From contig MU004236.1 in assembly GCA_010405405.1 (NCBI GenBank), positions 2,349,707-2,413,706 of the forward strand: DNA of 64,000 nucleotides, given 5' to 3'. The notes beneath the pieces were generated by a model. That model saw only the letters and a program-made list of their open reading frames with translations. It was not told the origin of the DNA and did not search any database. The translations under genes were made by a program, and so were the position numbers. Source of the stretch: Microthyrium microscopicum (lineage: Eukaryota > Ascomycota > Dothideomycetes > Microthyriales > Microthyriaceae). Below, piece after piece: positions 9,297 through 38,479 of the stretch (positions are counted from its first letter, which is position 1; every line of letters starts with the position of its first letter).

Positions 9297-10396
<1,100 letters not shown>

Positions 10397-10550
10397 TAGT
10401 TCGATTAGAGGACCCGAATTGACGACTTTTGCATCCTATATTCCCTGTCTGACTTTGCAGCTGCGATTGATACTCTAGTTTATTGTCGATCTAACTGGAG
10501 GATGCTAATATTGCCACAGCTCAGTTACTCGCAAAAACCCGAAGACTGGT

Positions 10551-12246: not shown

Positions 12247-13383
12247 GCCCACAATATAGTCTGAAAGTGCTCACAGTTCAGTAAAGAGTTGAGGTTGTGG
12301 TTGAAAAGTCGAAGGAATTGGCTGGTGAGGTTGAAGAGTGTTGGCCAATCAGGTCGTGGGCATTTCAACGACATGGCGACTCCTGAAGCCTCCGTAAGCA
12401 CAGCATCAGAGCTGTTCCCCTCCATTTTGAGTTCCGACATTCTACAATGGGCAGCCTAGAGGTTGTAGTGACACTAGCTCTGGCTTTGTTAGGCTATATA
12501 CTGTCCGAACACTTCCTACCAAAGCATGATCCAAGAGAACCTCCACTGGTGAAGTCGGTGATCAAGGTGCCTTTCATAGGCCACCTCCTTGGTATGCTGA
12601 GGTATGGCCATCGATATTACGCAAAAGCAGGGTACGTAAGGTCTTTCGGTCAAGAGTGGCTGCTAAATTTTATCAGCGGTGAAGACCCACCGCCAATATT
12701 CACGATAGACATGTTGTTGACGAAGACAAATATTGTCACAACATTGAAGCTCATGCAGTCGGTTCAACGAAATAGCAAAACACTCTCATTTGATCCTTTA
12801 TTGACCTCTACTGCCGAACGAGTGATTGGAGTTCGCGGAGAAGGACTGAAAATACTGAAAGAAAAGGCCATTGGAGGCCATGGCGTCAAGTTGGTCTCCT
12901 AAAGTTGTACTTTATGGCAAGGCTAATATGGACGGTGTAGCGCCTCGATGGTTCAAGCTATGCTTCCGACACTTCTAGGGGATGGACTTGACAAAATGAA
13001 CAAGACCATGATTGCTTTTGTTAAGCTTTCCATTGATGACTTGGTAAACGAACACGAGCCATTCGACTTGTATGCTTGGATTCGCCATGCCGTAACAATC
13101 GCAAGTACAGATGCAGTCTACGGCTCTCAAAATCCGTACCGGGATCCTGAGATCGAGCAAGCATTCTGGTTAGTCAACATGCGTATTCGAGGCATTATCT
13201 GTTAAAGTGATTGACTTTACTACAGGGATTGGGACACAAATATCGTAGCGCTTATGCCGAACATCCTGCAATCCATCATTGCCAGAAAGCCTCTACTTGC
13301 TCGCGAGAAAATTGTCGAACGCATGAAAATATATTTCAAATCTGGTGTTCCTGCGGATGCCTCTGAAATGACTAAATCGAGAT

Positions 13384-13388
13384 GGAAG
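13384..13388. repeat. Left target-site duplication GGAAG
   Basis: GGAAG directly precedes the left 295-bp LTR. The same five bases directly follow the right LTR at 37722-37726. It lies inside a P450 exon and codes for part of Trp-Lys. Confidence 0.95.
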
Positions 13389-13683
13389 TAACGGAATACG
13401 GTCCGTGCAGCTCAGGGAATGCAGAATCGGTGAAGGGAATATTAAAGAATCTAATTAACTAACTACTATAATAACTATAGTATTTATACCCTATTAAAGA
13501 CGTAAAACGTATCTTCTTAGAGCTTAGAATTTAGGCTATAATAGAGATAAAAGTAATATATAAAAAGGAGTAGAAAAAATAAAAAGATATAATAGCTAAT
13601 AAAGGCTAAATTTTAGTATTTTTACTTCTTAATCCTAAATTAAGACTAGTATAGATCTAAGGTTTAAAATAAACCTTTTATTA
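13389..13683 (-). repeat. Element A LTR, left copy
   Basis: This 295-bp repeat pairs with 37427-37721. The first 50 bases, next to the P450 exon, still contain CpG, CpA and TpG (ACGGAATACGGTCCGTGCAG). The rest is heavily mutated. Confidence 0.93.
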
Positions 13684-14222
13684 TACTCTCTAAGTTTCTA
13701 ATCTATAAATCTTAAAATATACTTAGTATTAAGTATAAAAGAATATTAATTTTTAGGTTTTCTAAGACTAAGCTATTAAAATATTAAAACTAGTTAAAAT
13801 AGAAAATAAAGAATACTATTAGATAGCCTTAGTATAGAAAATCTAGCTTATATAAAAATATAAAAGATTTAGTAATTTATAGTAGTAGTAAAAGTATTTA
13901 TAACGTTTTAGAAAGAATCTTTCTAAGCTAGTACTAAGTACTTTATATTTACTAAATTTAGTATCTTTCTAAACTTTTTATATTTTTATAGAGAAAGAGT
14001 TTTTATTAAACTATTTACTAGTATTTTATCTATAGAAACCTATTTAATAAAGATATAGCCTTTTATAACTTTTTAATAAAGCTAAAACTAATATATATTA
14101 ATATACTTTAATTTAGAAGATAAAAGCTAAGCCTACTTTATTATAATACCTATTATTTAGGTATTATTATTTAATATTAGTATTTTAATATTAGGATTAA
14201 ACTTAAGCTATAAAAAGAGGTA

Positions 14223-14444
14223 TATAAGGAGCTATTAGGCACAATTAGGTAAGTAGAATATAGCTAATATTATAGGATCTACGTATAGAGAAAAGAGATC
14301 TAGAGATAGAGCTATAGATATAAAGATATAGGGCCTAAGGGATCCTTAGATATACTAACCCTAAACAAAATAAAGAGATCTTATCTATAGGATTAGATCT
14401 CTAGATCTAATACTAAAATACTAAACCTATAAGGATTCTTTATA
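14223..14444 (-). repeat. Element B LTR, left copy (3' LTR)
   Basis: This 222-bp repeat pairs with 29316-29537 without length difference. The left target duplication AGGTA is at 14218-14222. Confidence 0.92.
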
Positions 14445-15479
14445 TAATTCTTCCTTTTTAAAATAGACTTCTTAAGCTATTCTAATCTATTTTATTCTAG
14501 GCTAGACTAGGCTAGTCTAATCTAATCTAGTTTAGTCTATATAAATACTAAACTCCTTTATATATATTACTACTAAGAGATATATAATACGTTATCTACT
14601 AACCCTAGTAACTATTAAAACCTATTAATAAAGGTAAAGATATTTATTTAAGATAGTCTATAGTATTTAATAGTCTTAATAGTAGCATTATTAAAATAAG
14701 CTAAAAATAAGGAGTATAAAACTATAAAAATAAAATACTTTTATACTATATAATCCTAATCTATAAATAAATTATTAATATTATAATCTTCTTTTTAGTT
14801 AGGCTTTAGTAGCTTTTATAAGGGATATAGACCTAGTTTATTAAAATATAGATAATAAAACTCTAAGATAGCATTAGGTACGTTAAGTATATTCTACTAT
14901 AATTACTAACTCTTATTATAATAATTATTCTACTTAATCCTATATTTTAAAACCTTACTTTTACTATAGCCTTCCTATTTACTATTAATAATAGCGTCTA
15001 TAAGCTATTCTTTTTCTTTACCTTTAACTTTACTAATAATAGCTAGTAGAGAGTTAACTTCCTTAAGAAGCTTAGCCTTATTATTAATAGGGTATAATAA
15101 CTAAGTATAAAATACTAAATATATTTTTATTAACTTAAGTAAGTCTAACTTATAAGTAATACTATTAATCTTATAAAGGACTTTAAATAGTCCTACGCTT
15201 TTATTATTAAGCGTTTTTAAAGGGCATATTATATTATAATTATAAATATTAAAATAAACCTAATTTCCTAAATAAAGATTAGATACTAAACGCTAATATT
15301 TATTAGCGTAGAGCTTTTACTATAACTAAGCCTATACTAACTATTTCTTTAGAAATTAGTATAACTTCTCTCTACTATTTTAAATATAATCTACTAAGGT
15401 AACTTCCTTATAAGCTACTATAGATTTATATAAAGCTTTAGGTAGTAAATAATAAGCTAACTCTAATCCTAATTTTAAA

Positions 15480-15760
15480 AGAAAGCTATTCTAAGCTTTA
15501 AATAGTATAAAACTTATAGTAGTACTTACTACTAAGTTAACTATAAACTTAGTAAAGAATAATAATAAGGCCTAATTATTCTAGTCTTAGTTAATAAATA
15601 AGTATAGATATTATTTAAATATAGTAATTAAAATCTCTATAATTCTATTTATTTTAAAATACTAAGCTATACTTAGTCTTAAGATAATACTAATACGTTT
15701 ATAAAGGTAGCCCTAAAATACTAATATAAACTAGATCCCTCTATCTAATAGGATAGAATC
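15480..15760 (-). pseudogene. Decayed Gypsy integrase of element B
   Basis: The minus-strand translation keeps the order and spacing of the conserved C-terminal part of the integrase core, with stops at former Gln and Trp codons, as RIP produces. It is separated from the element's reverse transcriptase by the element C insertion. Confidence 0.55.
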
Positions 15761-16245
15761 TAGCTAACTATAAAGCTTCTAGACGTAGTTAATAAATACT
15801 ATAACTATTATTTTAACTAATAGGTTAGGAAGGGTAATAAATCTTTAAGACTATATAAAGTAATTAACTATAACTATAATATAGTAATAGATAATTCTTT
15901 AGTATATATATCTTAGTAAAGAAATAGTAAAGTTAATAGAAATATCTAACTAAGTATAATTTAGTAGTAAGAAGGATCTTAATAAACCTTACTTCTTTTA
16001 ACGTATAGGTTTAGCAAAAATATAATAATAGCTCTTAACAAAAGTCTTTACTAACTTTAATATATATAGCTACTAGTAGTCTTACTATAAATAGTAATAT
16101 ATTATTATAACTCCTCTATATCCTATAACCTTATATTAATAAGCCTACTTTATAACTTTATAACGTAAATAGATAGTAAAAATAAAGAGCTTTTATTAGT
16201 AAAGCACTATACTATCTAGTATAGCTTTATAATTTATTAACTTAA

Positions 16246-16471
16246 TGTAATGATTCCTCTTTATAGGCTTTATAGTAGTGTTATAAGAGAGATCTTATTA
16301 TAAGATTACGCATTAGACTTAAAGAAGTTAGCGTGCCTAAGGATCTACTAAGTAGACTTACTTTCCTTGTAGATCTATAGCTCTTCTAAATCTTCTTCTT
16401 TCTCTTTCCTATTCGTAGATTCTAAAATATAATCTAATTATCTACTTACTTAAGTTCTATAGCTCGTTATA
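16246..16471 (+). repeat. Element C LTR, left copy (5' LTR)
   Basis: This 226-bp repeat pairs with 23672-23897. It is more heavily C-to-T and G-to-A mutated than the right copy over most of its length, but keeps the unmutated TGTAATG start. Confidence 0.93.
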
Positions 16472-19400
16472 TAATCTATAAACTATTTAAATATCTATAT
16501 GCTTATACTACGTACCCTAAAATTTACTTCTAAAGAAGTACCTATATAGATTAATATCCTACGTATATAGTCTTAAACCCTATTAAAGATCCTTTATAGA
16601 TTTACTAAATTTATTAGCTTTGCTAACTCCTTATCTAATTAGAGTGTTAGGATTTCCTAATACTCTTAGACTTACTAATAACCTAAGTATTAATTACTCC
16701 TTATCCTTAGTTCTATAAAATACTAAAGTTTATCTTCTATACTACTACTAAATATCTATAATTATACTTAATATACTTACTATTAAAACGTATTAAATAA
16801 ATAAGCGTTCTTTCCTAATACTCTTCTTTATTATTTATAACTATAGCTAATAAGGCTTCTACCTAATAGACCTAAGTTAATAGCTATATAGCCTACTTAC
16901 TATCTCTAGTTACTTATACTTAGCCTTATAATTAGCATTAATTCTTATTTTCTATATGCTTATATAATCTATCTCTATTACGTTGCTTCTCTACTATATA
17001 TACTAAGTATTAAAGTAGACTTAATACCTAAGATATAGTATAACTAAATACTACCTAAAAAATAATAGATTTAGTAGAAAACGTCTTAAGACTATTAAAA
17101 CTATTAGAACTAAACTTAAGAGCGTTATTAAAAAATAAAGATAAGTTAAAAGATAATTATCTATTAGAATAAGGCTATAAAAGTAAAGAAACTAAAGTAT
17201 TAAAAGATGCCCCTTAAAATACTAGTTAAATAACTTTACTAAACTAAATAAATATAGAAAATAACTAACTACTAGCTCCTTTTTAACCTAATAATAATAC
17301 TAGACTTTCTCTTAAAATATATAAATAGCTAATAAAACTACGCTAATAAGTTAAAGGCCTTAGAGTACTACTTATATTAATATTTTATTACTCTATAATA
17401 ATAGACCTTAATTAACTAGTTACTCTAATTATTAATAAGAACTCTCTAATCTTTTAAGCTACTTAAGTACGAAAGATACTTAGTAAAAAAGGCAATAAGC
17501 TAAAGAATATAAGAGTATATTTCTATTATAAAGAAAAGTAATTAGACTTTTATTACTATTCTTACTACTTAATTAAATTAAGTATAAACCTAGAATATTT
17601 ATTAAAAGAAAAGCTTATACTAGATAACTTAGTTATATAGCTTTATGCTTTTCTATTAGCCTCTTAAACTATAGCTTATCTCTTTAAAATTAAGTAAAAT
17701 ATAAATACTTATAATATAGACTTAATCTATACTCTCTAGAAAGAAGCTCTAAAAGCTTAGAGAGAAATATAGAACTTAGCTAAAACTAATAATAAACGCG
17801 TAAAGCAAATTACTTACCTTAAAGCGTAAATCTAAAATAATACTATTATCTTTAAAGAAGTAGTAACTACTTATTAGAAGGTATAAGAACTATAATATAA
17901 TAATAATCTACTTAAGAAAGTACTTACTACTTATATTAATAAGATTAGTAAATATTATAAAGCTCTATAAGAGAAGGTAAATAAAGCTACTATCCTTTAA
18001 GCTTAAGTTAACGTCTTCTAAAAAAAACCCTTAGTTACTAAGGTAACTAATTTTTATTTTAATCGTAACGAGTTAGTAGATAATAATCTATTTTATTAAA
18101 CCTTCTTAACTTAAGATATAGACTAACCTAACTTAAATATACTTCTAAAAGTACTAAACTTATATTAAACTACTCCTTTTTCTAACCTTAACTTAGTTAA
18201 TAGCACCTTTCTTTTTAAAATATAAAGTAATAAGCTTTTACTCTTCTTAGAAAAGGATAAGTAGAAGTATTATACTTAAAAAGATAAAGTATTAGATTAC
18301 CTTAATAATAATATATAAGTCTATTTTATAGAAGCCTTTAAGATCTAAGTTATCTAAGGAGTAATAAAAGATTAGGCATTTAGTACTATTAATAAGTAAA
18401 GTAACTATAAGTTAATTAATCTATATTTATCTATAGTAAAGATATAGTCTAATTTAGACTATAAGTATAATATTAAAGATAGCTATATTACTACTAAGAC
18501 TTAGCTTAAAAGTTAAGAAGCTATAATAAAGCCTACTAAGAAGCTTAAATAATTCCTAGCTTACTTCTTAGAGAACTTATAAGAAGCTAAGCTTAGTAAT
18601 TAAGATAAGATTATTAAAATACGTCTCCTTCTACTCCTAAAGTTTATAAAAAGAATACTCTTTATAGAGTTAAAAACATTTACTAACTTCCTTAAGAACT
18701 TATATACTATTACTTATTATATTAAATACGTCTCTTCTACTAATTTATAAAGCTATAATAATAATAATTATTTAGTAGCTAAGAGTAGTGAATAAAAACT
18801 AAAGTTTAACTATTCTTTAAATATCTATAATGCCTTAAAGGCTAATAACTATTATATAAAGTATAGAGAGAAGAGCTATAGCTATTAATATAACTTAGTA
18901 CTATATAAAGATAAAGACGCTCTTTTAAATACTAAAATCTAACTAAAGGTTACTACTATTATTATAGAGTTTACTACTATCTATAATTAAATTACTACTT
19001 AATCTCCTTAGTTCCTAACTATAGAGAATAATTATAATAAGTATAATTATAATAATAATATAGAAAACTAAAAGCTCTTCTATAGAGACGTATAAAGAAG
19101 CTAAATAAGTAAGAAATATATAATTAGTAACGAAAAAAGAAGGAACTTAATCTTAAGCTAATTCTCTCTAAAGAATAAATCTAATATAAGGTTAATAAGA
19201 CTATCTAACACCTAGAAGGTAATCTCTAATAAGCGTTATTCCTAAAGCCTATTATATTTAATAATATTAAACTAGCTATTATTAAGATATTCCTTACTTC
19301 TATAGTATATAATTTCTATCCCTAAGAAGTAGCTACTATACCTATAGTAAGTAACTAATAAACTATCTCTAATACTATATTCTCTTTAAAATAAGGCTAC

Positions 19401-20279
19401 TACTTAAAAATTAATATCCTTATAAATACTAGTAATAGAGTAATAAGAATTATTTACTCTAACTTTATTAAATAATATAGGATCCCTACTATTAATCTTT
19501 TTGTCCTCTAAATTATATAATTAGCTAATAGTAAAGCTATTACGAAAGTTAATAAAGCTACTATAGTTAATATCTATTTAGAAAGGTATATTAAATAAAT
19601 CTACTACTTTATTATAAATATTACTAACTATAACTTTATCCTTAGTAATCCTTAAATTAACCTCTATGAGGTTACTCTTAAAGAAGATAAAAAATAAATT
19701 TACTTTAACTTAAACTACTACCTTATATACTACTTACTAGTAAGCTACTTAATCTTAGTAAATTATAAAGGCTACTTAGTTAATCTAATAGACCCTTACT
19801 TTAAAAACATTACTATAATTAGTACTACTACTTTTATTAAGTTACTAAAATAAAGCTAGTAATTTAATAAAATCTAACCTAATAACTTTAAAGATAAAAA
19901 GGAAAAGAAACTTCTAAATTTAGATCCTATACTAAAGAAAGATATTACTATTAACTTAAGCAAAATCTTACCTAAGGATTTTAAAAAATAGTAAGAGAAA
20001 TATAATAAGCCTTCTCTCTTATAAGAAGAGATTCTTAAACGCCTACTAAAGGAATATTACTATTATATAAACGTCTTTAACTTAAAGTTAGATAATAAAC
20101 TTATACTATACTATAGTAAATAGGATTACTTTATTAATATTATCCTAAATGCTATAATCCTTAAACGCTACTATAATAACCTAAGTTACTAAGAATTTCT
20201 TATTATTAAATAATATATTAATTAAATACTTAATTAAAATTAAGTTTAAGCTAATAAGTTATATTATACTATACTAATA

Positions 20280-20760
20280 CTATATATATATAAGCTAAGA
20301 GAAGGAATTTAAGTTTATATTAATTATTATAGACTTAATAAGATTATATAAAAGAATTATAATATCCCTCTATAGCTACTAAAAATACTTACTTATATCT
20401 ATTATATAAAATACTTTTCTAAATTTAACGTTATTACTACCTTTATATATATTTATATTAAACCTAGTAATAAATATAAAACTATATTCCTAACTTATTA
20501 TAGGTTATATAAATTTAAAGTTATGCTCTTTAGCTTTACTAAAGCCCTAAGAACCTTCTAAGCTTATCTTAACTATATCCTAATTAATTACCTAAATAAC
20601 TTTATTATAAGCTATATAGATAATCTATTAATCTTTAGTAATACTAAAGCTAGCTATACTACCTATACCTACCTAGTCCTAAAAGTAATAAGTAAAGTAA
20701 GATTATACTTAGATATCTAAAAGTATAAATTTAATACTTAATAAGTTAAATATCTTAGCC
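20280..20760 (+). pseudogene. Decayed Gypsy reverse transcriptase of element C
   Basis: The plus-strand translation around 20510-20640 (YKFKVMLFSFTKALRTF, a stop, then YIDNLLIF) keeps the spacing of the conserved palm region, with stops and substitutions explained by C:G to T:A transitions. The catalytic dyad is not intact. Confidence 0.75.
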
Positions 20761-21059
20761 TAATTATTACTACTAAAGGTATTAAGATAGACCTAAAGAA
20801 AGTTTAAAGTATAATTAACTAGTAACGTCCCTTTTTAATAAAAAATATTTAAGCTTTCCTTAGCTTTATTAACTTCTACTACTAATTTATTCTTAAATAT
20901 TTAAAGACTATAGTATTATTAATAGTACTTATAAAGAAGGACGCTATAGTAATTTTTCCTTAGAACCTTAACAAGCTAGAGGAATATATATTTAAGAAGC
21001 TAAAGTAAGACTTTATATTTACTAAGATATTATATTACTTTAACTATATAAAAAAAATA

Positions 21060-21240
21060 TAGCTAAAAATAGACGCCTTAGATTAGATTTATACTATAGT
21101 CTTCTCTTAAAAAGATAATAATAAGAAGCTTTACCTAGTTACGTACTTCTTAAAGAAGATAACCTTAATAGAATATAATTATAATATTTATAATAAAGAG
21201 CTTCTAGCTATTATCTATATATTTAAAGAATAGGAATTAG
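21060..21240 (+). pseudogene. Decayed Gypsy RNase H of element C
   Basis: The plus-strand reading shows KIDALD followed by a stop and then YFLKKITLIEYNYNIYNKE, the expected spacing of a Gypsy RNase H start and its following block. Confidence 0.65.
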
Positions 21241-22079
21241 AGCTATTTAGCTCTATTAACCCTATTTAAGTATTCTCTAATTATTATAACCTTTAAATAT
21301 TTATAATAACAAAACATCTCTCTTAATAATAAGCTAAATAAACTAAGTTCTTTTCCTAGTTTTACTTTAAGATAAAGTACTACCTAAGTATAGCTAATAG
21401 AAAGGCTAATACCCTTACCTATTAGTTATAAGACATTCTATAAAGTAATAATAACTTTTACGTCTTTTAATAGGTCTAACCTTTACTATTCTTATACTAA
21501 TTTAATATAAAATACATAGTAAAGCTAGCTATATTACTTATTAAACTTACTTACCTCTTAATACTATACTTAGCTACTATTACTTAGGATAAGTTAGATA
21601 TTTCTAATCCTATAGGTAAGCTACTTAATTCTATAGGAAAGTTTCTTAATAATAATAAGACGCCTAAGAGTAAGCTACTTAATTCCTTAGGAGATAACTT
21701 ATTCCTAGATTTTAATAATAACTAGTTCCTATAGGATATTATAAACGTAATAAAGTATAATAAAATAATAATAATTATTTGCTATGCTAAAACTAACTAC
21801 TAGCTCTTTTTACTCTTTAGTACTCTAAAATAAGAGTAAATTAAGCCTAGAGACTATATAGTAGCTACTAATAAGATAATCCTTTACTATAACTAGATTT
21901 TTATTTTTTAAAGTAAGCTTTAGCGTTACGCTATATAGAGTATATATAGCTATAAAGCTATAAGCTATAGTAAAGTAATAATAACTTACTACTACTTATA
22001 AGAAGATTACTAATAGCCTAAGATATTATAGAATATTAAGAGCTTTATTAAAGGCTATAAATACGTATTTACTAAACCT

Positions 22080-22600
22080 ATTTACTAAAAGAAGTAAGGC
22101 TTCCTATATTAATTCCCTCTCCCTAAGTATATATAGTTAGATATCTTTATTAACTTTACTATTTTACTACCTTACTATTTATACTAAGGTATAATCTACT
22201 AATATATTATAGTAGTTATTAACTAATATATATAAACCTAGCATTTTATTTCGCTACTAGACCTATTTATAGACTTAATAGTACTAGCCTTTATTAACTA
22301 TATATAGAAGCTTATTAGCTAACTATTAATAATTCTTTTAGACTATAGTAACTAATTTATTTCTATATTCTAGAAGCGCTTATATAAATGCGTAGATACT
22401 ATACTCTATCTTAGTATAGCCTTTTACCCTAAGACTAATAGTATAATAAAAATCTTAGTTATTATACTTAAGTAATTCCTATACGCGTTTATTAACTAGG
22501 ATTAAGATAATTAAGTAGCCCTTCTACTCTTTACTAAATTTATAGTTAATTCTACTATAAATACTACTATAAGAGTTATACTTTTTAAAGCTTAAAATAA
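22080..22600 (+). pseudogene. Decayed Gypsy integrase of element C
   Basis: The plus-strand translation keeps an AFYPKTNSIIKI segment and flanking blocks in the order of the integrase catalytic core. A likely C-terminal domain remnant follows at about 22860-23060. It is heavily stop-interrupted. Confidence 0.65.
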
Positions 22601-23657
22601 ATTTAACTCTTAATTAGGTCTTAAGTCCTTATATTGCTTCCTAAAACCTATAAACGCTTCTATAACTACTAATAAAAAAGCTATTAATATAGATACAATA
22701 TAGATAAGTTGCGCTAAGATACATAATTATCTAATAAAGTAATTAATCTAAGCATAAGCTTAGTAAGCAGAATACGCTAACTGCTATTACTACGTAGCCT
22801 TAGACCTAATACTAAGTAACTAAGTTCGCTTAGATACATAGAACTACCCTACTTTACGTTCTTTAAAGACTCTAAATAATAAGAATATAAGCCTCTTCTA
22901 TATAATTAAGAAGATTAATACTATTACCTATAAACTTAATCTTTCCTCTTCTATAAAGATACATAATATTTTCTACGCCTAGGTTTTCTACTATATTATA
23001 GATAACGCTAAGCTACTTAAGTATACTAATTTACTACTAATAGTTATTAGAGAAACTATAGATAATAATGAATAGTCTATTAATGCTATTATTAATAGCT
23101 ACTTTACTAATTAATATAAGAAGCTATAATATAAGATTAAGTATACTAGTTATAATAAAGCTAAATAGTATAATTAAATAGCTACTAAGAATATACTAAA
23201 GCTTATTACTAAGTTTTATACTTAGCACCTTAGTAAGCTAGGCCTATACCCTACCTAAATACTATTAATATTAGAGCCTACTAACGATAGTATTAATTAT
23301 AACTCTAATAGCGTTCCTACTAATTAGGAGAAATAAATAATTATACTACTAATTCTCTTATATTAATAGAATTACTAACTACTAGACTACTAAGACTTAA
23401 GAACTAAAGTATTCTAAAGATATCTTAAGGTTCGTTAATGCTTCTTAATAGTTACTTTAGTAAGCTAAAGGTTAAGATACTCTAAATAACTAGTATAGTT
23501 AGTATTATACTATAGAAGGATTAAAATATTACTTATTACTAAAAGTTTATTAGATTAGACTAAACTAGGCTAGACTAGACTAGACTAGACTAAATTAGAA
23601 TAGAAGGAACTAAGAAAGTAGTTATAATTAATAATCTATAACCTAAAGAGCTATACT

Positions 23658-23668
23658 AAAGGAGGGGG
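23658..23668 (+). other. Polypurine tract of element C
   Basis: AAAGGAGGGGG lies three bases before the right LTR. Its G run survived because it offers no CpA/TpG target. It fixes the orientation of the element. Confidence 0.75.
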
Positions 23669-23671
23669 TTA

Positions 23672-23897
23672 TATAATAATTCCTCTTTATAAGCTTTATA
23701 GCGATATTATAAGAGAGATCTTATTATAAGATTACGCGCTAGACCTAAGGGGGTTAGCGCGCCTAAGAATCTACTAAGTAGACTTACTTCCCTCGCAGAT
23801 TTGTAGCTCTTCTAGATCTTCTTCTCTCTCTCTTCTGTTCGTAGATTTTAGAATATAATCTAATTATCTACTTGCTTAAGTTCCACAGCTCGTCACA
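23672..23897 (+). repeat. Element C LTR, right copy (3' LTR)
   Basis: This 226-bp repeat pairs with 16246-16471. It keeps more of the pre-RIP sequence (for example TTAGCGCGCCTAAG and CACAGCTCGTCACA). Confidence 0.93.
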
Positions 23898-25094: not shown

Positions 25095-25350
25095 TATTTT
25101 ACTAAAGACTAAGATATTATTAAAGTAAATAGTAACGAAATTATTAAGGAATTATATTAATATATAGTTAACGTAAAATTAAAACGTTCTTAGTCCTTTT
25201 ATAAGACTAAAGAGAAGGACGTTAAATTTAAAGAGGCTATATCTAGTAAGAAAGGCTATTTTATACTTATCTCTAGGTTTAATCTAAATTTATTTAAACG
25301 CTATAATAATATTAAATTTTAAATAAAACTTTATATATATTAAATATATA
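25095..25350 (-). pseudogene. Decayed Gypsy reverse transcriptase of element B
   Basis: The minus-strand reading shows FKFNVLLFSLIKGLRTF, a stop, and then FLNNFVTIYFNNILV, which matches the palm region of Gypsy reverse transcriptases in spacing. The metal-binding aspartates appear as Asn, as expected from RIP. Confidence 0.7.
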
Positions 25351-28300
25351 AGTATTTTATTAATAAGAGGAGAAATATTACTATTCTTAATAATAATTTT
25401 ATTAAGTTTATAATAATTAATATAAACTCTAATACCTCTATCTAGTTTACTAATATAAAGTATTAATATAGTATATTAAGACTTAGAAGGCCTTATAAAC
25501 CTATATATTAATAATTACTCTATATATTACTTTATTATTAATACCTACTTTAAGAATATTAAAATAAGGTAACGTTTTAGTATCTTTATATCTAGAATAA
25601 GATTAATAGTATAATTAAATTTATCTTAATATAATATAAAAGTATTAACTCATTTTAAATTAAAAACCTTAAAGTATTATTAGAACTCTTCTAGAATAAG
25701 CTTTAGTATTTCTTCTTATAATATATATAAGCTATCCTACTTATCCTACTATTTAATATAATCTTCTTTAAAGATAACGTAAGTAAAGAGATTTATTACT
25801 TTTTTATTATTATTATCTTTATCTATTATTCTATTATCTTTTATCTTTTTAAAATCTTCTAGCTAAAAAGCGTTAATAATAACGTCTTTATACTTTAAAA
25901 GCTTCTTAAATACTATAGCTAATATAAATATAATATCTATATTATTAAAAAAAGGAAGGTTAATCGTACGTTCTTTTAGATCTATAAATATTAGATAACG
26001 TAATATAATATAATTAGTAATATATTATATACTACTAAAGATTAAAGTTTTTAATCTTTTATAAAGATTAACTTTATATTAATCTATCTAAAGCGCTTTT
26101 AATATTAAGTTATATAAGGCAACTTCTATAATAAAATAGCTAAGCTATTTAACGTAGTAGCTAATATAAATATTAATAAGGGCAGCCTTATTAACTATAA
26201 AAATAGACTTACTATTAGTAAGCTTAATAATTTAAAGTTAAGTTAGGTTAAATATAATATACTATATTATCTTAAGTAGTAAGAATTAATAATACTTATA
26301 GCATTACTACTTATATTAATTAGGATACCTATATTAGAATATACTTTACTATATAGAATATAAACTTACTCTACTATAGTCTACTAAAATCTAATAATAA
26401 AGTCTTTCTTTTTAATATCCTTTAGCTATACTATAAGTATAATAAAAGCTAGTAATATATAAATAACTTAAGAATATACTAGTATAATATAACTCTTATA
26501 GACTACTTCTTTATATTTAAGGCGCTTAATATAATAATATAAATATCTAATAATAACCTTTTTATTTTTATAAAATATCTTCTTAGCTTTTTACTTATTA
26601 GTTTTAATATTAGGTAGTTAAGCATTAGGTTAGTTATCCTAATATTTCTTTTATTTATTTTACGCTTTATTCTTATTTAGCTTCTCCTTATAGCTTAGTA
26701 AAGAAGCATCTAGTTTAATAAATAGTAATTATCTTTATTTTAAGCTTCCTTAATAAAGGGTTATTAACCTTAACGTACGTATATAAATACTATAATTAAT
26801 TAAGCAACCTTAGCTTTAATCTTCTAATTAAATAATAGCTCTTAATCCTTATAAAGTAGGTTCTTAGTATTAGTATAATATCCTTTTTTACTATAATAAA
26901 TATAACATTTCTTAGCTTTTAGTACTTAGAATATATTTAAGGATTAAAAGATATTATTAGTTTTAGCGTTAGTATTATTTCCTTAATTAAAAGATTAATT
27001 ATTTCTTTAACGTAAGTTATTCTAATATAGGTTACTATTATTTAGATTTATATTAGTATTTAGTTTATAGTTAATATAATAACTAACGTTATAAAGTTAA
27101 ATATAAAAGGTAGTAAAGTCTTTAATATTATAAGCTACTAAGAAATTTATAAACTTCTTTAGGATTAGATCTTTAAGTTTAATAATCTTCTTACGTTTAT
27201 TAAGTTTTATATTTATAAAGTTAGCTTTAAATTATTCTAAGAACCCTTAAAGAGTCTTAGAATCTTTTATTTTAGCTTTAGGTAACTTTAACTAAGCTTT
27301 AGTATCCTTAAAACTATTTTTAGAATAAAAGTAGCTATTTAGATTAGCTTATATTTTATTTATATACTTATATAAGTTCTTTAATTCTCTACCTCTCTAA
27401 ATAATAGTAAAGTTATAAGTAGTATTAGTAAAGTATTAGTAAATAAACTTAATCTTTTTCTTTTCTATTAGGACGTATAAATATATTTTATTATTAAGTA
27501 GAATATTAAGTATCTTCTTCTTCTATATCTTATACTTAGTTATATTAATTCTAGTAAAGTTACTAAGTTCTTTAAAATAAAGGTAACTACCTACTACGCT
27601 TATAGTAGTTAATAATAAAGTTAGATATTATATATCTATAAGTTAAGTATTACCTAATACTACTAAATATATAAAATTTAATATATAATAACCTAGAATA
27701 GTATTATCTTCTAAATCTTTATAATTAATATAAAGAGGTAGTACTATAACTAATACTACTTATAGCTATTCTTCTAGTTTAGTAATCTTAGTATATAGTA
27801 AGCTAACTAATTCTTAATACTAAAAATTAGTAGCTTATTTAGTCTTTAACTTTATAATAGCCTATTATTTAGACTAGCGTACTATATTTAATTTAATAAT
27901 ATAATTACGTTATAACTAGTTAATATAGGCTTAAACGTCCTCTATTAAATATTACTAATCTATAGCTTTATTTTATAAGGTTTTAAACAACTTCTTAAGA
28001 TAAGTTATATTAAAGTTTAATTCTAAGAAGTTCTTTATAATAGTATTCTATACTAATCTTAAAAACTAATAGTAAAGAGCTATAGTTTATAATATTACTA
28101 ATATAGTATAAAGTTATTTAAAGAAATCTTTAAGATAGCTAAATTTAATATAATAGTATAAGAAATCTTCTTCTTTAATAGTAAGATATTAATCTTATAC
28201 TAGGTTTAATAAGTCTACTTTATTTTAGTAAATTACTAATACTTATTTTCTCTATTTTAGTTTAATTCTATATAAGGCCTATATAAATAAAGGCTTATCT

Positions 28301-29315
28301 ACTACTAATAGAGTAATATTATAGTTTAAGTCTATAAATATAATAGGTAAATAGGAAAGAAATCCTAAAAAGACGTTTAAAGAGTTAAGTTAACTAAGTA
28401 ATAAATCTAATTAGAGTTATATATCTTTTAGAAGACGTACTTTATTATTATCTAATACTTCTACTATACGTTTCTTTCCTTTAATTACTTTTACTATAAA
28501 AAAGCTAGCAATCTAAGTAGTACTAAAGGTTAGCGCCTTTTTCTTTAATTCTAACTCTTTTATTAACGCTATAATAAGTACTACTTTAAAAGTTTTCTCT
28601 ACTTCCTAAATATCTATAGTATTCTAACGTAGAAATTTAGCGTCTTTATTATTAGAGAGTCCTTTATCTTTCTTAAATATTAAAAAGAGTTTAATAGTAT
28701 CTTAAACTCTAAGTAGTTTATATTAAAGAATTAACTATAAGGTTAATATCTAATTAGCTTTTATATCTAATATAACTAACATAGCCTTTAAGAAGTATTT
28801 ATATAAGTCATAAAAAGGTAGAGAACGCTCTAATAAATAAGATTATAAATATTTACGTTTAAGATAAAGAAAATAAAGTAGTATACTATAATTAGCGTGC
28901 TAATTATTCTAGTAATCTATAATAATATTATTTCTATTATTATTAGAACTAATCTAATAGAATAATAGATATTTTTAGATAAAAAATAAAGTATATATAA
29001 GTAGATAGTAAGTAGAGAAGATATAGAAACGTCTTTATAGATTATTAGTAAAAGAATACAGTAAGATAAACACTTTAACTACTTTATACTCTTTATTTTA
29101 GTAAACAACGCTAAAAAGGCGCTTATTTAATTAAGTATTTATAGCTTTACTAGTACCTTCTATAAAGATCTAAATAACGCTAATCCTAACTAAGAATAGT
29201 ACTACTAATTTATTATTATTATTTAATAAATTTAAGCATAACTTTAGTTAGTAGCAATTTAGTAATATATAATAAATATATAGAATTATTTTTTAGTATA
29301 AAGGTACGTAAATTA

Positions 29316-29537
29316 TATAAGGAGCTATTAGGTATAATTAGATAAGTAGAATATAGCTAATATTATAGGATCTATATACAAAGAGAGGAGATCTAGAGAT
29401 AGAGCTATAGATATAAAGATATAGAGCCTAAAGGATCCTTAGATATACTAATCCTAAACAAGATAAAGAGATCTTATCTATAGAATTAGATCTCTAGATC
29501 CAACACCAAAATACTAAACCTATAAGGATTCCTCACA
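29316..29537 (-). repeat. Element B LTR, right copy (5' LTR)
   Basis: This 222-bp repeat pairs with 14223-14444. Its last 35 bases, with CCAACACCAAAA and CCTCACA, are less mutated than the left copy. The right target duplication AGGTA is at 29538-29542. Confidence 0.92.
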
Positions 29538-29542
29538 AGGTA

Positions 29543-29740
29543 TTAGATTAAGATTAGCTCTTTTAAGGCATTTAAAAGAAATAAAAGTTTTACTTCTATT
29601 ATAGATATTAAGACTATCTTCTAACGTAAAGATTACTAGCTAATAAGTTTTCTAAATAAGTTAAATAAGAAACCCTAGATTAATCTTTAAGTCTCTTAAT
29701 TATCTATAAATATAGTATTATAGGCTATAAGAAATACTTC
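29543..29740 (-). pseudogene. Decayed Copia RNase H of element A
   Basis: The minus-strand translation follows the C-terminal RNase H of fungal Copia elements in order and spacing. Stops stand at former Gln, Arg and Trp positions. Element B inserted just beyond its end. Confidence 0.65.
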
Positions 29741-32700
29741 TTTACTAGTAGTAAATACTTTAATAGTTCTATAATACTTAAGTATAAAGTATTTTATTGC
29801 TTAAAGATATAAAATAGTTCTCTTAATCTTATAGTAATAAAGCTTAGAAGGATTCTAGTTAAAATAGCTTAAATAAAAGGCTATATAATAGATATCTAGC
29901 CTATATACTATTATAAGGTAGATTATAAAGCTATAATATATTTAGAAGATATAGATTTAATCTTTAGATACCTATTCTTTATTTAGAATAAGTTTAATAA
30001 GATTTAAGATAAAAATAACGTATTTAGTCTTCTTTATAATATTAAGCTAGAATTTAGTACTAATTTTATTAATATACTAGTCCTATAAGATCTAAAGCTT
30101 TTAATTAGCTTAATCTTAAAGTATTTAAATATTAAGAAAGCTTTTTAAAGTACTTAAATCCTTTATAGTATAGCGTATACTAAGTTTATATTTTATCTTA
30201 TCTACTTCTACTTAATATACTTTTAGTAAAAGAAGGAAGAAATTATTAATATAATAAAAAAAGAAGATAAAATACTAAATATATTTAAAAAGATAAAAGT
30301 TTTCTAAAATAAGCTTAAACTTTATTATATAAAGAATAGCTCTTATATCTTAATACTATAGTAATAAAGATCTTAGTAATCTATAAAGAGTATAATAAAG
30401 TAGTAAAACTTTTCTAAGGATATTAAAGCCTTTAAAATATTAAACTAAAACTATTTTATCTAGAATAGTATTTAGAAAGATATTTATAGTATTAAATTAG
30501 TAAAGATCTAAATTAAACGTAGCTATTAATATAAGAATTATATATAATATATAGTAAGCTTTAGTAATAGTATAAATCTCTAGTTTTAAATTTTAGTACT
30601 ATAGATTTCTTCTTATATAGATTCTAGCCTTATATTTAAAAAGAAAGCTATTTAAATTATACTTCTCTAAAAATACTTACTTTAAGAGTAGAATAAGCTT
30701 ATTAATTTAAGAAGTATAGACCTCTTTAAATATACCTTATTCTTAAAGTATTTTAATCTTAATTCTAGTAACTAAAAGATACTAGTCTTAATTAAGGCAT
30801 TTTATTATTTTAAACTATATTTTTAGTAATTCTAATATATCTTTTTTATAGTAGTATTAAACTAAAGCTATAAAGAATATATAATATAATAAGATAAGGA
30901 AGTAAGGTTTATAAAGTACTAGATTAATAATCCTTAAAAATTATAGAATATAATTACTTCTTATAGCGCGTATAAAGATATTTTAAAAAGCTTAGATCTC
31001 TTATTTATACTTAGTAATATATTACTATTTTAAGCAAGCTATTAGAGTAGCTAGTAGTAGTACTAGTAGAATTATAGAAGTAGAATTTTCTAAAGTATTC
31101 TCTCTTAATTTAGTATATTCTTAAGTAGGTAATAGACTTATAAAAGGTATTAGATATTATAAAGAAGGCTAAGATAGTAGTAATAGTATAAAATTAGACG
31201 TTATTAGCTAATTGTTAAATATAAGTTAATTAGAATCATTTTTAGAAGTCTAATAATTATCTTATTCTTACTATTAAGTATCCTATGCCCCCTAATTTTA
31301 ATTAGGCTATTATTTAGCTTCTTATAAGTTAAATATACTACTACTAATATCTATTTTAAGATAAGAGAGTAGTATATTTAGAAATATATTAGTAAATTAG
31401 TTATTAATTATAGTAAGCATAGTAGTATTAAATTTAATAATTTTATTAATTATAATATTTTATGCTTTAATAATATAGTTATTTAAAGAAATCTAGACTT
31501 TAAAGATATTGCTTCTAATATAATTTATTAGCTAACTTTTAATTAAGTAAGATTAAAGCTTCTTAAGCTTTAGAATATTAGAATTATAAATATAGGCTTT
31601 TAAGCTAATAATTTAAACTAATAAGAAATCTAGTACTTATTTAAATACTATCTTAAAGAGTATTCTCTAATTTAGCTACTTCTTTAGGATCCTATTAAGT
31701 AGATATATTATTAAGTAAGTAAGTTTAAGCTATAATATATCTAGAAGGCTACTATATTATTTTAATACTTTTATAATAAATATTAGGATTTATCTTAATA
31801 CTTTTATAAGACTATTTTATAAAGCAATATAGGGTATAGATAGTTCTTTAATAATATTATTTAGCTAAATCTTATTATTTTATTTCTTACCTATTATAGC
31901 TTTATAATCCTTATAGATTTAAAGAACCTTATATTTAATATTACCTATTTTATAACCTATATTCTTAATAATAATAAATACGTAGCATAAAAATTAAATA
32001 TAGTTCTCTTATATCTTTTAAGGAAGTATTTTTAGTAGATAAAACTTTATAATAGTATAGTAAGTATAGATAATCTAATAATTATTATTATAGCCTTTCT
32101 TAACCTAAATTAGATTAATATAAAGCTTCTTAAAGGGCTTTAAGCCTAAATTTATTAATTAATAAGAGATTTATTTCTTTTACTTTATTTTAATATAGAT
32201 TTTATAGAAATAGTTATTATCTTTAGTATCTTTAAAAAGAGTAATGTTTAGAGTAATTTTTACGCCTTTAGTAATATATTCTATATAAGATACTATAGCT
32301 TTACTAATATAATCTATCTATTAGTACTATTTAGATATAAAAGCTATAGAAGTATAAGAAAGTAATAATATTATAAGAAAAATATAGTAAGAATTATTTT
32401 TAAAGAGAAAATAAACGTTAGAAGAGATAATTTTAGCTAAAAGCTTTCCTATTTTAATATACCTAATCTAGCTTATTTTATTATTCTAATAATATTTTAT
32501 AGCTTTTATTTTATAATAGGAAGCTAGATTCTTATAGAAGCTAGGTATATAAGCAATATTATAAAGAGTAACTATTTAGTATTCTTTAGAGCCTAAAATA
32601 ATAATATCTATATTACTATATTTTATAACTTATAAAGAGACCCTACTATAGATTAAAAAACTAAAAATACTCTTATATATTTTAAAGTAGGATTTATTAT

Positions 32701-32970
32701 TATAAATATATATATCTATTCTAGAATTAAGAATAAACCTTTTATTAAGAAATATTTTAACTACTATAGATATTATAACTTTTATAACTACTATTCTAAT
32801 ACCTATATATTTAATTAGTTTAGGTAGTTAGTTATTATTACTATACTTTTATTCTTACTTTTCTTAAAGGATATAATTTACTTTAGCTTTAAGTATAAGA
32901 TTCTTAAGGCTTTTCTTAACTTTAGCTTCTACTTTAGGGTTAAGATACTATTTATTTAAATATTTATTAA

Positions 32971-34878
32971 GAAAAAGGACCTTCTTTGGCTCCCACACGG
33001 CTTGATTCGCACTACTTCATTAATATAATTTAAATAAACCATCAGAATCCCTTTGCTAACGCTTAGGGATTACTTTTATAAATTTTTAGCTAGACGCCTG
33101 CACGCGCTACAGTATTATTACGGCTAGAATAATAGCTAAACTAAACGACTAAAACATAGAAGAACGAGACTCTAATTTTAAGAGCTATAAGAGCTTACTT
33201 AATAGTAACCCTTTAGAACTACTTAGTATAGTTAACATAGTAGAGATATCCCTATCTAAAATATAAAAAGGTATACAAAAAGGATTAGAAATAATTATCT
33301 TAAAATAAGTCCTCTATAATACTATAGAGGAGCTTATTAAGCTAAAGAACTACGTCCTTTATTAAGAGGAAGAGCCTCTAGTAGCTAAATACCTTACCCC
33401 TAAACCTATCTTCCTTAAAACTATCCTTAATTAGCTTAATAAGATTAAAGTAGTAGTTTAACATTATTCTACTATACTAGCTCTAAAGCTATATTCCTAG
33501 GTAGTAATTACTTCCTATACTAAACTATATATAAGCAAATTAAAAGGTTATTCTATTATTTTATAACTTAAGGTAGGATAATATATAAGGACTCTTCTAA
33601 AAGTCCTTAAGGAACTTAAAAAGATATTTATAGGTACTATAGGCATATGCCCTCTATAAAGTAATAATCTTTAAATTATCTTTAAAGACGCTAAATAAAA
33701 AAATTAGGCTTAGTACCTAACCATTAAAGGCGCGTAGGTACTTTAGTAAAATTATTCTATTAAAGTAGCTAGCGTATCCTTAAAAAGTATTAGTAATAGG
33801 GTTTATTATAGTAAGAAAGTAGATAATTATAACTTAGGGTTTATTAAGGCCCTAAATAAGAATAACTAGCACCTTTCTACTATTACTAGGGTAAGCTAGA
33901 TCTATAGTAATAAAATATTAATCTTAGAGAAGAAGAGATTATCCTTTATTATATATCTCCCTATAAAGGGTCTTTAAGAAACCACTATAGCTTAAAGGCT
34001 AATAATTAAAGGCGTATAGTATAGTTATAAACTCTAGGCTATAACGCTAGCTAGTACCTATTACTATTAGTATAGTATCTAGGGATATATATAGTCTTTC
34101 TATTTAGTAGAAGCTTACTATAGACACTATATAGATAAGTATAATATATAGAACTATAAAATAAAAAGTAAAAGTAAATAGTGCTTAAATTATAGTTATA
34201 AATATAATTATTAGAATAAATCCTATAGTATTTATAAGAGTATTACTTTAGTAGTAGACGCTCTTTAGGTAACCTTATTTAAACGTATTATTAACTTATA
34301 GAATAGCATAGCTTAATAGAATTATAGTAATATAAACTTATTACTAAAGAATAAATATATACCTATTGCTATACTAAAAGCTAGCCCTATAAAAGGCCCT
34401 AGAAAGCCTCTAGCCTTAGCTATAGCAAAATCTACTCTAGAATAGTAATCCCTTAACTTTATACCTACTTATCTAGAACCTTTAGGCATAGCTACGCCTA
34501 TAGCTATATTAAGAAGGAAGATTGCTATAGCTATCTTAGCAAGTATCTATAAGGCTACTAAAATAGCTCTAGTAAACCTAGTAGAGTTTAAGGAAGTAGA
34601 CGAAGAGGTTTAGATAAAGTTAGATAAGTAGGAAGAAGATTAAACGAAGTAAAAGTATTTTATAGAATGGCCTATTAATAGCTATAAGGTTAACGTTCTA
34701 TAATAGATAAATAGACGCTAGAGCGCCTATAGCGCTCTACTAGGGCAAATAGTATAGTTTTATTCCCTTAAGGGTTTCTACTATAAATAGTTGATATAGT
34801 CTGCATACGCTTATTAAAGTAGCGTATTTAGACCCCTTACGGGGTCTAAACGAACTAGACAATAAAGAGATTTATATA
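32971..34878 (+). mobile_element. LINE (Tad1-like) deletion derivative inside element A
   Basis: This 1.9-kb segment is flanked by a 14-bp direct repeat TAAATATTTATTAA (32957-32970 and 34879-34892), as expected for target-primed insertion. On the plus strand, about 34040-34260 reads as remnants of a zinc-knuckle region of a LINE ORF1-type protein (VEAYYRHYIDKYNI, CLNYSYKYNY). No reverse transcriptase region follows; the unit passes directly to a 3'-end-like sequence with a hairpin. Both ends are less RIP-mutated than the middle. The assignment to Tad1 type is inference from the knuckle pattern. Confidence 0.5.
34831..34846 (+). other. Hairpin near the 3' end of the LINE derivative
   Basis: GACCCC-TTAC-GGGGTC is a perfect 6-bp stem with a 4-base loop in a GC-rich island of an otherwise AT-only region. 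It could be part of the 3' recognition structure for LINE reverse transcription. Confidence 0.4.
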
Positions 34879-35956
34879 TAAATATTTATTAAATTAAAGA
34901 TAGAAATAATTATTATAGAGTTCTATTTTACTATAAAAATAAAGAGGAGTTATTTTTTTATCCTTTTAAGAACTTTATAATCTAGATATTAAGAAAAGTT
35001 AATAAGTATTTATATTTAAAAAAGTCTTCTTAGGTTAAAATATCTCTTCTTAAGTTTTTCTATTAAGAATAGTAGTAAAAGTAATACTAAATTATAATAC
35101 TAGTATAGTTTTCTTATTATAAATAGTCTAATATTTCTTAATATATTCTAAAAGAATAAGTTATTTACCTTTTATATAATAATAAGTAAATTATATTTAG
35201 GTACTAAGGTAAGAAGCTTAAGTAGTATCTATAAAAGTATCTATAAGCTATTTCTTAGAGATTCTATCCTTATTATAAAGAGAACTTTCTTTTTAAAGAA
35301 ATATCTAGTAAGTTAGCTAGAGTTATAATTCTTACTATTTATACCTTTTTCTTAAAGTATTAAATTCTTTATCTAGCTTTAAAATTATACTAGTTTAGAA
35401 AGAATAAATACTTTTCTAAAGTACTTAAAATATATCTTAAGCCTTAAAGATATTAGTAATATAGTTCTAAAGACTTTTAGATACTATTTTATTTAAGAAG
35501 TTATTAATCTTAACTATAACGTTTTTAGTATCTTAATACTCTTAGTAATCTAAATTATATATCTATAATAGGATATTATATTCTTAAGTAAAAATTAACT
35601 CTACTATTTAAGTAAGTTAATCTTTACTATTTTCTATAGATACTTAAGAAATAGTAAGTTCTACTAAATATATTTTAAATAAGTGTACTAATTCTTTTAG
35701 AAAAAAACTAGTTCCTTCTAAATTAATATAATCCTATATATCTAGAATATATACTTACTATTTTATAAAATTAATCTAGATATACTAGTTATTATTATTT
35801 TTTAATATAATTACTATAGAAAGATTACTAGTAGTTACTATTATAAATAATCCTTCTATAAGCTTCTATATAGTATACTTAGGAATAATACCTAGCTTTC
35901 TATAAAGACTAATATCTCTAATACTACTCTAATTAGAAAGTAAAAACTTAGTATAT

Positions 35957-37035
35957 AGAAGAAGAAGAAAAAGAAGAGGAAGAAAGTATTTTATACCTCT
36001 AAGAATTAAGGGATTACCTATTTAAGCAATTTATATTAAGTTTATTTAAAAGAAGTATGTATAAGCTTATAATAAGTACTTCTAGTAAATACTACTACCT
36101 TCTTAGAAATAGAATATAAAATAATTAGATACTTATATATCTTTACTAAGTATTCCTTCTACTCTACTTAGGAATAGAATATAAAATAATTAAATATTTA
36201 TATATCTTTACTAAATATACCTTCTAGTTATAGTATACTAAGCCTAGACTAAAGTACTAAAATTAAGTTAATAATAGTAAGATTACTAATAATATTTTAT
36301 AAGAATTTAGAATATACTTAAAAGTAGCGTAGGTTTTAGTATTACTATAGCTAAGGTAGTAAAAAGATTAAGTTCTTAAAGTTAAGGAATAATAATAGTA
36401 GTTTATATAATATTAATAATAAGTTTCTCTAAGAGATCTACTTAGTAGCTTAGGTTTATAAAAAAGGAAGTAGTAAGTATAGTAATATAGTTACTATTAA
36501 GAAGTTAGAAGATATTATCTAGCACTACTAATACTAAGACTATTAATATACTCTAGTACTACTAATACTAAAACTATTAACGTACTAAGATAATAAAGAG
36601 ATTAAGTCTTTAAAGGTAAGAACTACTAGTAGTTAAGTCCTTAAAGTTAAGAAAGTAATAGTAATAAAAGAACTATTAAAGACTAAAAAACTAAATAGTA
36701 ACTAAAAATAGTAAGAAGTATTATTTATGCTTTATTTCTATAAATACTAAAGCTATTAGCATATTTTAGTACTATTAATACTAAAGCTATTAGTATACTA
36801 AGTATTTAAGGAAGTAATAGCTTTTAAGAACTATTAAAGATAAGAAGACATTAAGATCTTAATAGTAAAAGTTATATAAATATTAAATATAGTAGAAAGA
36901 GTATTAGTAAAGGCGTAGATAAGATAAAGCTTAAAGTATATAATAAAGAAGAGAAAAAGAAGAGGAAGAAAAGAGAGAATAAAAGAATATTTATACCTCT
37001 AAGGTTTATAAAATTACCTTTTTAAGTAATTTCTT
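35957..37035. repeat. Direct repeat of about 80 bp at 35957-36035 and 36949-37035
   Basis: Both copies contain AAGAAGAGGAAGAAA followed by TTATACCTCTAAG and a TTACCT..TTTAAG..AATTT segment. They lie about 1 kb apart in the 5' part of element A and may mark an internal duplication. Confidence 0.5.
36108..36237. repeat. Two-copy tandem repeat, 65-bp period
   Basis: The unit beginning GAATATAAAATAATTA occurs at 36112 and again at 36177, with transitions between copies. It lies in the 5' (gag-proximal) part of element A. Confidence 0.6.
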
Positions 37036-37426
37036 AATTTAATCTATTAATTCCTTACTTTTTCTTATTATTAAATAACGTAATAAGGTTCTCTTATTAC
37101 TTCTTAATAATTTAAATAGATATTATAAATAGTAAAGTAATAAAGAGAGGTATAAGTTACTATAAAAAAGAATAGGTAAAATAAAGTACTTCTTAACTCT
37201 ACTCTAAAAGAGTAGTAGCTCTAAATAATAGTTCTAGCTTTAGTAATAATTATAACTTTAAAAGTAATATTATAAGTTAATCTATAATCTAAATATTAGG
37301 TATTAATACTAAAACTAGTATATAGTAATAGCTAAAATTTAGGAAATTATAATAATATAGTTTATAAAGAATTTACGTATAGAATAATAAAATAATAAAA
37401 GTATATTAGAATATTAGGCTTATAAC

Positions 37427-37721
37427 TAATAAAATATAGTTTATATAGCTTAAGGAATATAGAATTAATAAAGAAAATATTAAAGAATCTAATTAACTAA
37501 CTATTATAATAACTATAGTATTTATACTCTATTAAAGATATAAAACGTATCTTCTTAAAGCCTAGAATTTAGGCTATAATAAAGGCAAAAGTAATATATA
37601 AAAAAGGGTAGAAAAGGTAAAAAGATGTAATAGCTAATAGAGGCTAAATTTTGGTGTTTTTGCTTCCTAATCCTAGATCAGGACTAGCGCGGATCCAGGG
37701 TTTGGAACGAACCTTCTGTCA
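37427..37721 (-). repeat. Element A LTR, right copy (5' LTR)
   Basis: This 295-bp repeat pairs with 13389-13683 without indels. Its last 60 bases, adjoining the P450 exon, keep the pre-RIP sequence (GGACTAGCGCGGATCC, ending CTGTCA). GGAAG follows at 37722-37726. Confidence 0.93.
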
Positions 37722-38479
37722 GGAAGTCCATGCAAGAAGGCGATATGGACGCTGCAGATCGACACCGCATAGAAGCTGCCATGGCCTTTGGAGTCTTGAG
37801 TAACAGTGTCCCAACGGTTTTCTGGGTGCTTCTAGACGTCTTCTCTCGACCAGATCTTCTAGTCCAACTACGAGAAGAGATTGAGACAAACGCTGTCACT
37901 ATTCAGTCCAGGGATGGAAAACCAGCCCATATCATTGATCTCGCTGCTATTCGCGACAGCTGTCCGCATTTCGTATCAACCTTCCAAGAAGTACTCCGTC
38001 TTCGAAATCTGAGTGCTTCCACTCGCTCAGTAGTCAATGACATCGTGTTAGATGATCAATATCTCCTGAAGAAGGGCTCGCTTGTTCAGATGCCCTCGCA
38101 GTACTTCAACGTTCGAAAAGCAGTTTGGGGAGACGATGCTAAGTTGTTCGACTCCAAACGTTTTTTATCCAAAGAAGTTGGCACTGGAAAGACAAGGGGC
38201 TTTATTGCTTTTGGCACCACTCCGCACATATGCCCAGGACGACATTTTGCGAGTGGCGAAGTCCTTGCCATTGCAGCAATGGTGTTTCTGCGGTACGACA
38301 TGGTGGCTATTAATGGCTGGAAAGAACCGAAGCTCTCATCTACAGCGTTGACAGCGTCGATTACACCACCTAAAGATCCCTATTTGGTCTCGATCAGTGC
38401 AAGAGATGCGTACAAAGATACGACCTGGGAGTTTGCCGTCACTGAAGGTAAAGGGCGGTTCAACCTGATCATTGGATAA

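Follow-up and report, generated by a model that had tools for sequence, protein, structure and literature searches.

Where does repeat-induced point mutation (RIP) stop when a transposon that it mutates lies within a gene: at the border of the inserted DNA, or before it? This question is raised by a locus in a stretch of contig MU004236.1 (64,000 nucleotides, hereafter the window), in which a cytochrome P450 (P450)-type gene is divided into two halves by a nest of retrotransposons with long terminal repeats (LTRs). RIP ends inside the outermost element of the nest (E1), around 50-130 base pairs (bp) short of each of its outer ends, with the LTR pair serving as an internal control, and the unmutated zone runs from the gene into the element. 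The whole account, according to which E1 cut a CYP7/CYP8-like P450 gene, the nest grew, and RIP remained confined to it and spared the outer ends as the places where homology ends, is held with a probability of about 0.85.

The insertion is a nest, with E1 in the gene, a second element (E2) in E1 and a third (E3) in E2, each between exact 5-bp target-site duplications (TSDs; GGAAG, AGGTA, and CTTAA, respectively), as the first-pass annotation had proposed in calling it a nested transposon (Table 1). It was found by blastn self-comparison of the AT-rich parts, in which three pairs of LTRs emerged along with two long matches in inverted orientation, and the LTR ends were then refined on the sequence. 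The LTR pairs of 295 bp (E1), 222 bp (E2; 14223-14444 and 29316-29537), and 226 bp (E3; 16246-16471 and 23672-23897) align without gaps. E1 is 9,013 bp long without E2 (a probable further insertion, E4, still included), E2 7,658 bp without E3, and E3 7,652 bp; E2 and E3 match each other at 67-69% in inverted orientation. The right LTRs of all three elements end with CA and the left LTR of E3 starts with TG; the left LTRs of E1 and E2 start with TA, as would be expected of a TG altered by RIP.

Table 1. Features of the window, with positions in the window, strand where given, and the basis of each entry
Feature	Position	Strand	Basis or remark
FAD-binding protein	4365-5462		Pfam
Rrn7-type factor	10551-11828		Pfam
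5' half of the interrupted P450-type gene	12447-13388	+	open spliced frame, left TSD included
TSD GGAAG, left copy	13384-13388		exact match to right copy
In-frame stop TAA	13389-13391	+	first three bases of left E1 LTR
E1, LTR retrotransposon in the gene	13389-37721		LTR pair and TSD; superfamily and orientation unproven
E1 left LTR, 295 bp	13389-13683		6 CpA/TpG in outer 50 bp, none in inner 50 bp
TSD AGGTA of E2 in E1	14218-14222 (left), 29538-29542 (right)		exact
E2, putatively Ty3/gypsy-type	14223-29537	-	LTRs, TSD, RT-RNaseH domains
TSD CTTAA of E3 in E2	16241-16245 (left), 23898-23902 (right)		exact
E3, putatively Ty3/gypsy-type	16246-23897	+	LTRs, TSD, RT-RNaseH domains
E4, probable fourth insertion, in E1, less RIPed	32971-34878		14-bp direct repeat TAAATATTTATTAA (32957-32970, 34879-34892)
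E1 right LTR, 295 bp	37427-37721		5 CpA/TpG in outer 50 bp, none in inner 50 bp
TSD GGAAG, right copy	37722-37726		exact match to left copy
3' half of the interrupted gene; carries EVLR (ExxR) and ICPG (heme-cysteine loop)	37722-38479	+	PF00067, PDB matches
DUF7726 protein	38821-39627		Pfam
Hybrid histidine kinase	51379-54591		Pfam

Concerning the coding content of the nest, the pieces of E2 and E3 were scanned with TAA and TAG read as Q and TGA as W; the Pfam scans took in 29601-37404 of E1, E2 on the minus strand to the right of E3, and E3 on the plus strand. RT_RNaseH_2 and RT_RNaseH are matched on the minus strand of E2 (E = 1.3e-14 and 1e-13) and on the plus strand of E3 (E = 3.5e-15 and 6.1e-12), the latter together with a sub-threshold Tf2-1-like SH3 match (E = 3.2e-6), and these RT-RNaseH domains suggest that both elements are of the Ty3/gypsy type. 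The stretch termed E4 is probably a fourth insertion, perhaps a non-LTR one: it contains 19 CpA+TpG per kilobase (kb), whereas the neighbouring stretches of E1 contain 4.1 and 2.7, and among up to 1,000 random pairs of E1 windows, 0 had a match as long as the 14 bp that flank it. Above the Pfam cut-off, nothing is found in E4, nor anything within 29601-37404 that would point to the capture of a host gene by E1 or E4. From the nesting, E1 came first, E2 second, and E3 third, with E4 arriving some time after E1. Since the gene was cut, the nest has thus received at least two, and probably three, further insertions.

Two smaller features of E1 may be added. On its minus strand, a candidate primer site, GTTATAAGCC, adjoins the right LTR and may, if RIP is allowed for, resemble what we take to be part of the initiator transfer RNA. 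At 36099-36226, a 63-bp unit is present twice, nearly in tandem and with 90% likeness.

Throughout the nest (13500-37600), CpA and TpG are reduced to 0.09 and 0.05 of expectation and TpA/ApT amounts to 1.66, compared to 0.65-0.71 in four flank and exon stretches. Bins of 100 bp inside the nest contain on average 0.63 CpA+TpG (maximum 7, n = 241), those of the host 14.6 (standard deviation 2.8, minimum 7, n = 325). On the two sides of the insertion, the five nearest bins contain 12, 16, 13, 19, 11 and 16, 11, 13, 14, 13, respectively, and with ten junction-side bins at 11-19 the earlier statement that the host exons are free of RIP is borne out. RIP is thus extreme in the nest and at background level in the exons, i.e., confined to the inserted DNA. 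The two LTR copies differ at 55 sites in E1, 20 in E2, and 32 in E3, and all 107 differences are RIP-type transitions (C:G to T:A) with a CpA bias, transversions and gaps both being 0. RIP targets repeated DNA; within the window, to which the count of copies applies, the LTRs are repeated and E2 and E3 are related to each other. The mutator would be a RIP enzyme, and further copies of the elements would lie elsewhere in the genome.

It is the comparison between the outer and the inner copy of each LTR that reveals where RIP stops. In E1, of the 26 sites at which the copies differ within the 5' half of the LTR, 25 have the original base in the outer copy, as do 27 of the 29 such sites within the 3' half (Fisher, 2.9e-12), and the crossover of this polarity lies between LTR positions 132 and 181. 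Counted over the outer 50 bp, the six LTR ends of E1, E2, and E3 retain 6, 5, 2, 5, 3, and 5 CpA/TpG (26 altogether), as against 0 in each of the same stretches of the inner copies; the outer and inner ends being the same sequence, sequence context cannot be the cause. E4 is likewise spared at its left edge (6 versus an interior mean of 0.61; Poisson, 4.4e-5). The first-pass annotation had offered a choice between a recent insertion and a sharp end of RIP at the insertion's edge. This is no true alternative, since RIP density does not date the insertion and both can hold, and the stop is situated inside the element, not at its edge.

Active host chromatin beside the insertion might exclude the mutator, with the end of homology playing no causal part. 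E1 does abut genic DNA on both sides, its spared zone is continuous with the unmutated exons, and the polarity is strongest in just this gene-adjoining element. E2 and E3, however, are embedded in RIPed DNA (0 and 1, and 1 and 0 CpA/TpG in the 50 bp just outside them) and nevertheless keep 2 and 5, and 3 and 5 CpA/TpG in their outer 50 bp versus 0 in the inner copies, such that nearness to genes or unique DNA is not needed for a rim. We consider an effect of chromatin unlikely, and the rims of the nested E2 and E3 favour the end of homology as the cause of edge sparing.

The course of events is best explained as follows. In a host that is probably a RIP-competent filamentous ascomycete, E1 landed in exon 4 of a CYP7/CYP8-like P450 gene under formation of a 5-bp duplication, the reading frame now ending at the first LTR codon; E2 followed, next E3 within E2, and, probably separately, E4. 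RIP has driven the nest almost to the exhaustion of CpA/TpG without entering the host exons, sparing the outer 50 bp or so of the LTR elements (clearest in E1) and fading in across the next 100 bp or so. The likeliest cause is that the RIP machinery senses what the copies of an element have in common, and that such homology would run out at the element's outer end; the inward LTR ends, which are mutated in full, would have homology on both sides. The rim of 50-130 bp fits a homology-length requirement. For Neurospora test crosses, PMC12543289 describes AT-rich k-mers as increased in duplicated sequence and not in the linker, and according to PMC11969663, linker mutation drops almost to zero without DIM-2. 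The contrast between outer and inner LTR ends might be a general, quantitative footprint of homology sensing by RIP, which would require homologous sequence to the left and to the right of a mutated base across some 50-130 bp, also in elements nested within DNA that is already mutated; we offer this generalization tentatively and rate it at somewhat less than even chances. If it is true, each RIPed LTR element constitutes its own control, and rim width becomes comparable across fungi as a homology-sensing distance.

Several points weigh against the account. Taken alone, the half-LTR polarity is not significant in E2 (Fisher, p = 0.18) or E3 (p = 0.24), the left edge of E2 is weak (2; Poisson, p = 0.012 versus the E2 interior), and the right edge of E4 is not spared (1 versus 0.61, p = 0.46). 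The LTR boundaries of E2 and E3 were chosen with knowledge of the TSD, leaving a few offsets of freedom, and for the rim test the edges of E4 were set around 6 bp inside the 14-bp repeats. Position 2 of the E1 LTR is A in place of the canonical G, which may mean that RIP has struck even the extreme edge. Pol domains above threshold are absent from 29601-37404 of E1 in all six frames, where Pol_BBD (copia-type, minus strand; E = 0.011) and FHA_2 (E = 0.099) stay below the cut-off. Concerning the enzyme, PMC11969663 reports that native duplicates in Neurospora continue to undergo RIP when either RID or DIM-2 alone is missing, such that the pattern found here does not name it. Concerning the gene, the left half yielded 0 matches in Pfam and NCBIfam and 0 against PDB (phmmer, E up to 10), i.e., it is not recognized as the N-terminal half of a P450.

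The left half comprises four exons (12447-12631, 12677-12889, 12941-13168, and 13226-13388; 263 codons without a stop) and three GT-AG introns of 45, 51, and 57 bp; two alternative choices of intron 1 also keep the frame open and lead to 253 or 258 codons. The insertion (13389-37721) spans 24,333 bp between the exact GGAAG copies, and with the T that follows GGAAG, 6 bp are identical at both junctions. In the right half, the frame covers 250 codons (37727-38476) followed by a stop, giving 513 codons for the joined gene. The earlier description of two halves 24.3 kb apart that meet at a 5-bp GGAAG duplication to form a 513-residue frame without other lesions is therefore upheld, both halves being otherwise open, and the membrane anchor claimed for it corresponds to a real N-terminal hydrophobic stretch (best 15-mer Kyte-Doolittle mean 2.43, starting at residue 6).

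Analysed apart from the left half, as was done throughout, the right half aligns with PF00067 over positions 277-454 of the 462-position profile (E = 4.5e-24). Against PDB, among the best 60 of 130 matches, it comes closest to the CYP7A1 chains 3dax and 3sn5 (E = 1.4e-9), followed by 7lyx, a 12-alpha-hydroxylase, and more weakly by 3b98, a prostaglandin I2 synthase. It carries ExxR in the form of EVLR and a heme-binding cysteine loop in the form of FGTTPHICPG. The consensus of the P450 heme loop being FxxGxRxCxG, the cysteine is kept and the full motif is not, and the claim of an ExxR motif and a heme loop is to be qualified to this extent; the claim of a P450 gene, similarly, is sustained by the right half and finds no Pfam, NCBIfam, or PDB match in the left. 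The label CYP7/CYP8 is our own and derives from the names of the PDB matches: like such P450s, the right half is closest to the CYP7A1 chains and possesses ExxR and the heme cysteine, whereas the low similarity, the deviant loop, and the unrecognized left half set the gene apart from them.

The left half is assigned to the P450 by position and collinearity, without a profile match of its own, and its failure to match Pfam, NCBIfam, or PDB would suit two unrelated genes that were never one and merely meet at the insertion. The halves are separated by an exact TSD, however, at which a codon boundary both closes the left frame and opens the right one. Furthermore, CYP7A1 residue 260 aligns at residue 13 of the 249-residue right-half query (from 37730), such that the 263 left residues preceding this point roughly fit in length, and the left half bears an N-terminal hydrophobic anchor. 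Two separate genes are thus very improbable. In the left reading frame, the codon directly after the TSD is TAA, supplied by the E1 LTR, and a transcript of the left half would end at 263 residues; ExxR and heme loop are both encoded beyond this stop, in the right half, and to judge from the anatomy of the insertion the P450-type gene is probably null here. Relatives were confirmed neither for the right half (viral and genome contigs) nor for the left half (viral contigs), with 5, 38, and 5 pattern matches, respectively, in contig collections that included no eukaryote genome set, so that this negative says little.

The outer LTR ends might also have been replaced after RIP by gene conversion from an unmutated copy, and in PMC10787394, solo-LTR gene conversion is brought up as a possibility for an LTR element in a fungus. 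Such an origin would require conversion at six of six outer ends and at no inner one, and E1 exhibits a mixed crossover zone with no sharp tract end, which renders it scarcely plausible. An assembly chimera is highly unlikely: a mis-join is not expected to produce, at each of the two junctions, matching LTRs together with a TSD and with unmutated LTR ends that face outward.

As to age, recency of the insertion is not established; the evidence allows it and bounds it weakly. The empty-site polymorphism put forward by the first-pass annotation stays a candidate. Total LTR divergence was rejected as a clock because all 107 differences are RIP-type, a warning that ordinary LTR divergence dating fails here. 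The 0 non-RIP differences in 295 E1 LTR positions limit transversions plus gaps to about 0.5% per site or less (95%, Poisson). With a nonsense fraction of 0.030-0.032 per substitution in the halves, the chance that none of the 1,539 coding bases has given rise to a stop would fall to one half at about 1.4% neutral divergence (nonsense only; frameshifts would lower this value).

Compared to RIP of the RID/DIM-2 type in Neurospora, the nest shares the exclusive C:G to T:A changes between LTR copies, the exhaustion of CpA/TpG, and the restriction to inserted DNA, whereas it differs in being very saturated, in flanks without visible leakage, and in the unmutated rim at element ends. From fungal LTR insertions in genes with nested Ty3/gypsy elements it differs in nothing of principle, although E1 is without a domain match above threshold; LTR pairs, 5-bp TSDs, inverted nesting, and the RT-RNaseH domains of E2 and E3 are common to both. 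The split gene is confirmed as an ordinary insertional pseudogene, and the useful part is the polarity of the LTR edges: with the same sequence at an outer and an inner place, an LTR pair separates position from sequence, such that RIP can be seen fading toward the end of the repeat. This fading bears on repeat recognition and on the survival of genes beside RIPed transposons. No description of unmutated outer LTR ends under RIP was found in the full-text literature, in which subscription journals are thinly covered, such that a prior description is quite possible; passages of PMC3441728 contain nothing bearing on the sparing of edges.

A second AT-rich, RIPed block is situated at 59000-64000 and reaches the end of the window, with 4.6 CpA+TpG per kb over 59200-64000. 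At its left boundary, the host level falls to zero across roughly 59075-59150. No match between this block and the nest was found by blastn at E = 1e-6.

Around the locus, Pfam was applied to five neighbours among 18 listed open reading frames (ORFs), two of the 18 being the P450 halves; the neighbours recognized are given in Table 1, the ORF at 6999-9293 has no Pfam match above cut-off, and no biosynthetic backbone enzyme is among the five. Over the window, 0 matches were obtained with Rfam (gathering threshold) and 0 with ARAGORN (bacterial code). At 42829-43527, two ORFs of 199 and 175 residues overlap on opposite strands, and probably no more than one of them codes for a protein. The ORF at 9848-10399 exhibits, by eye, a ubiquitin sequence followed by a ribosomal-protein-like stretch, and we take it to be a ubiquitin fusion gene.

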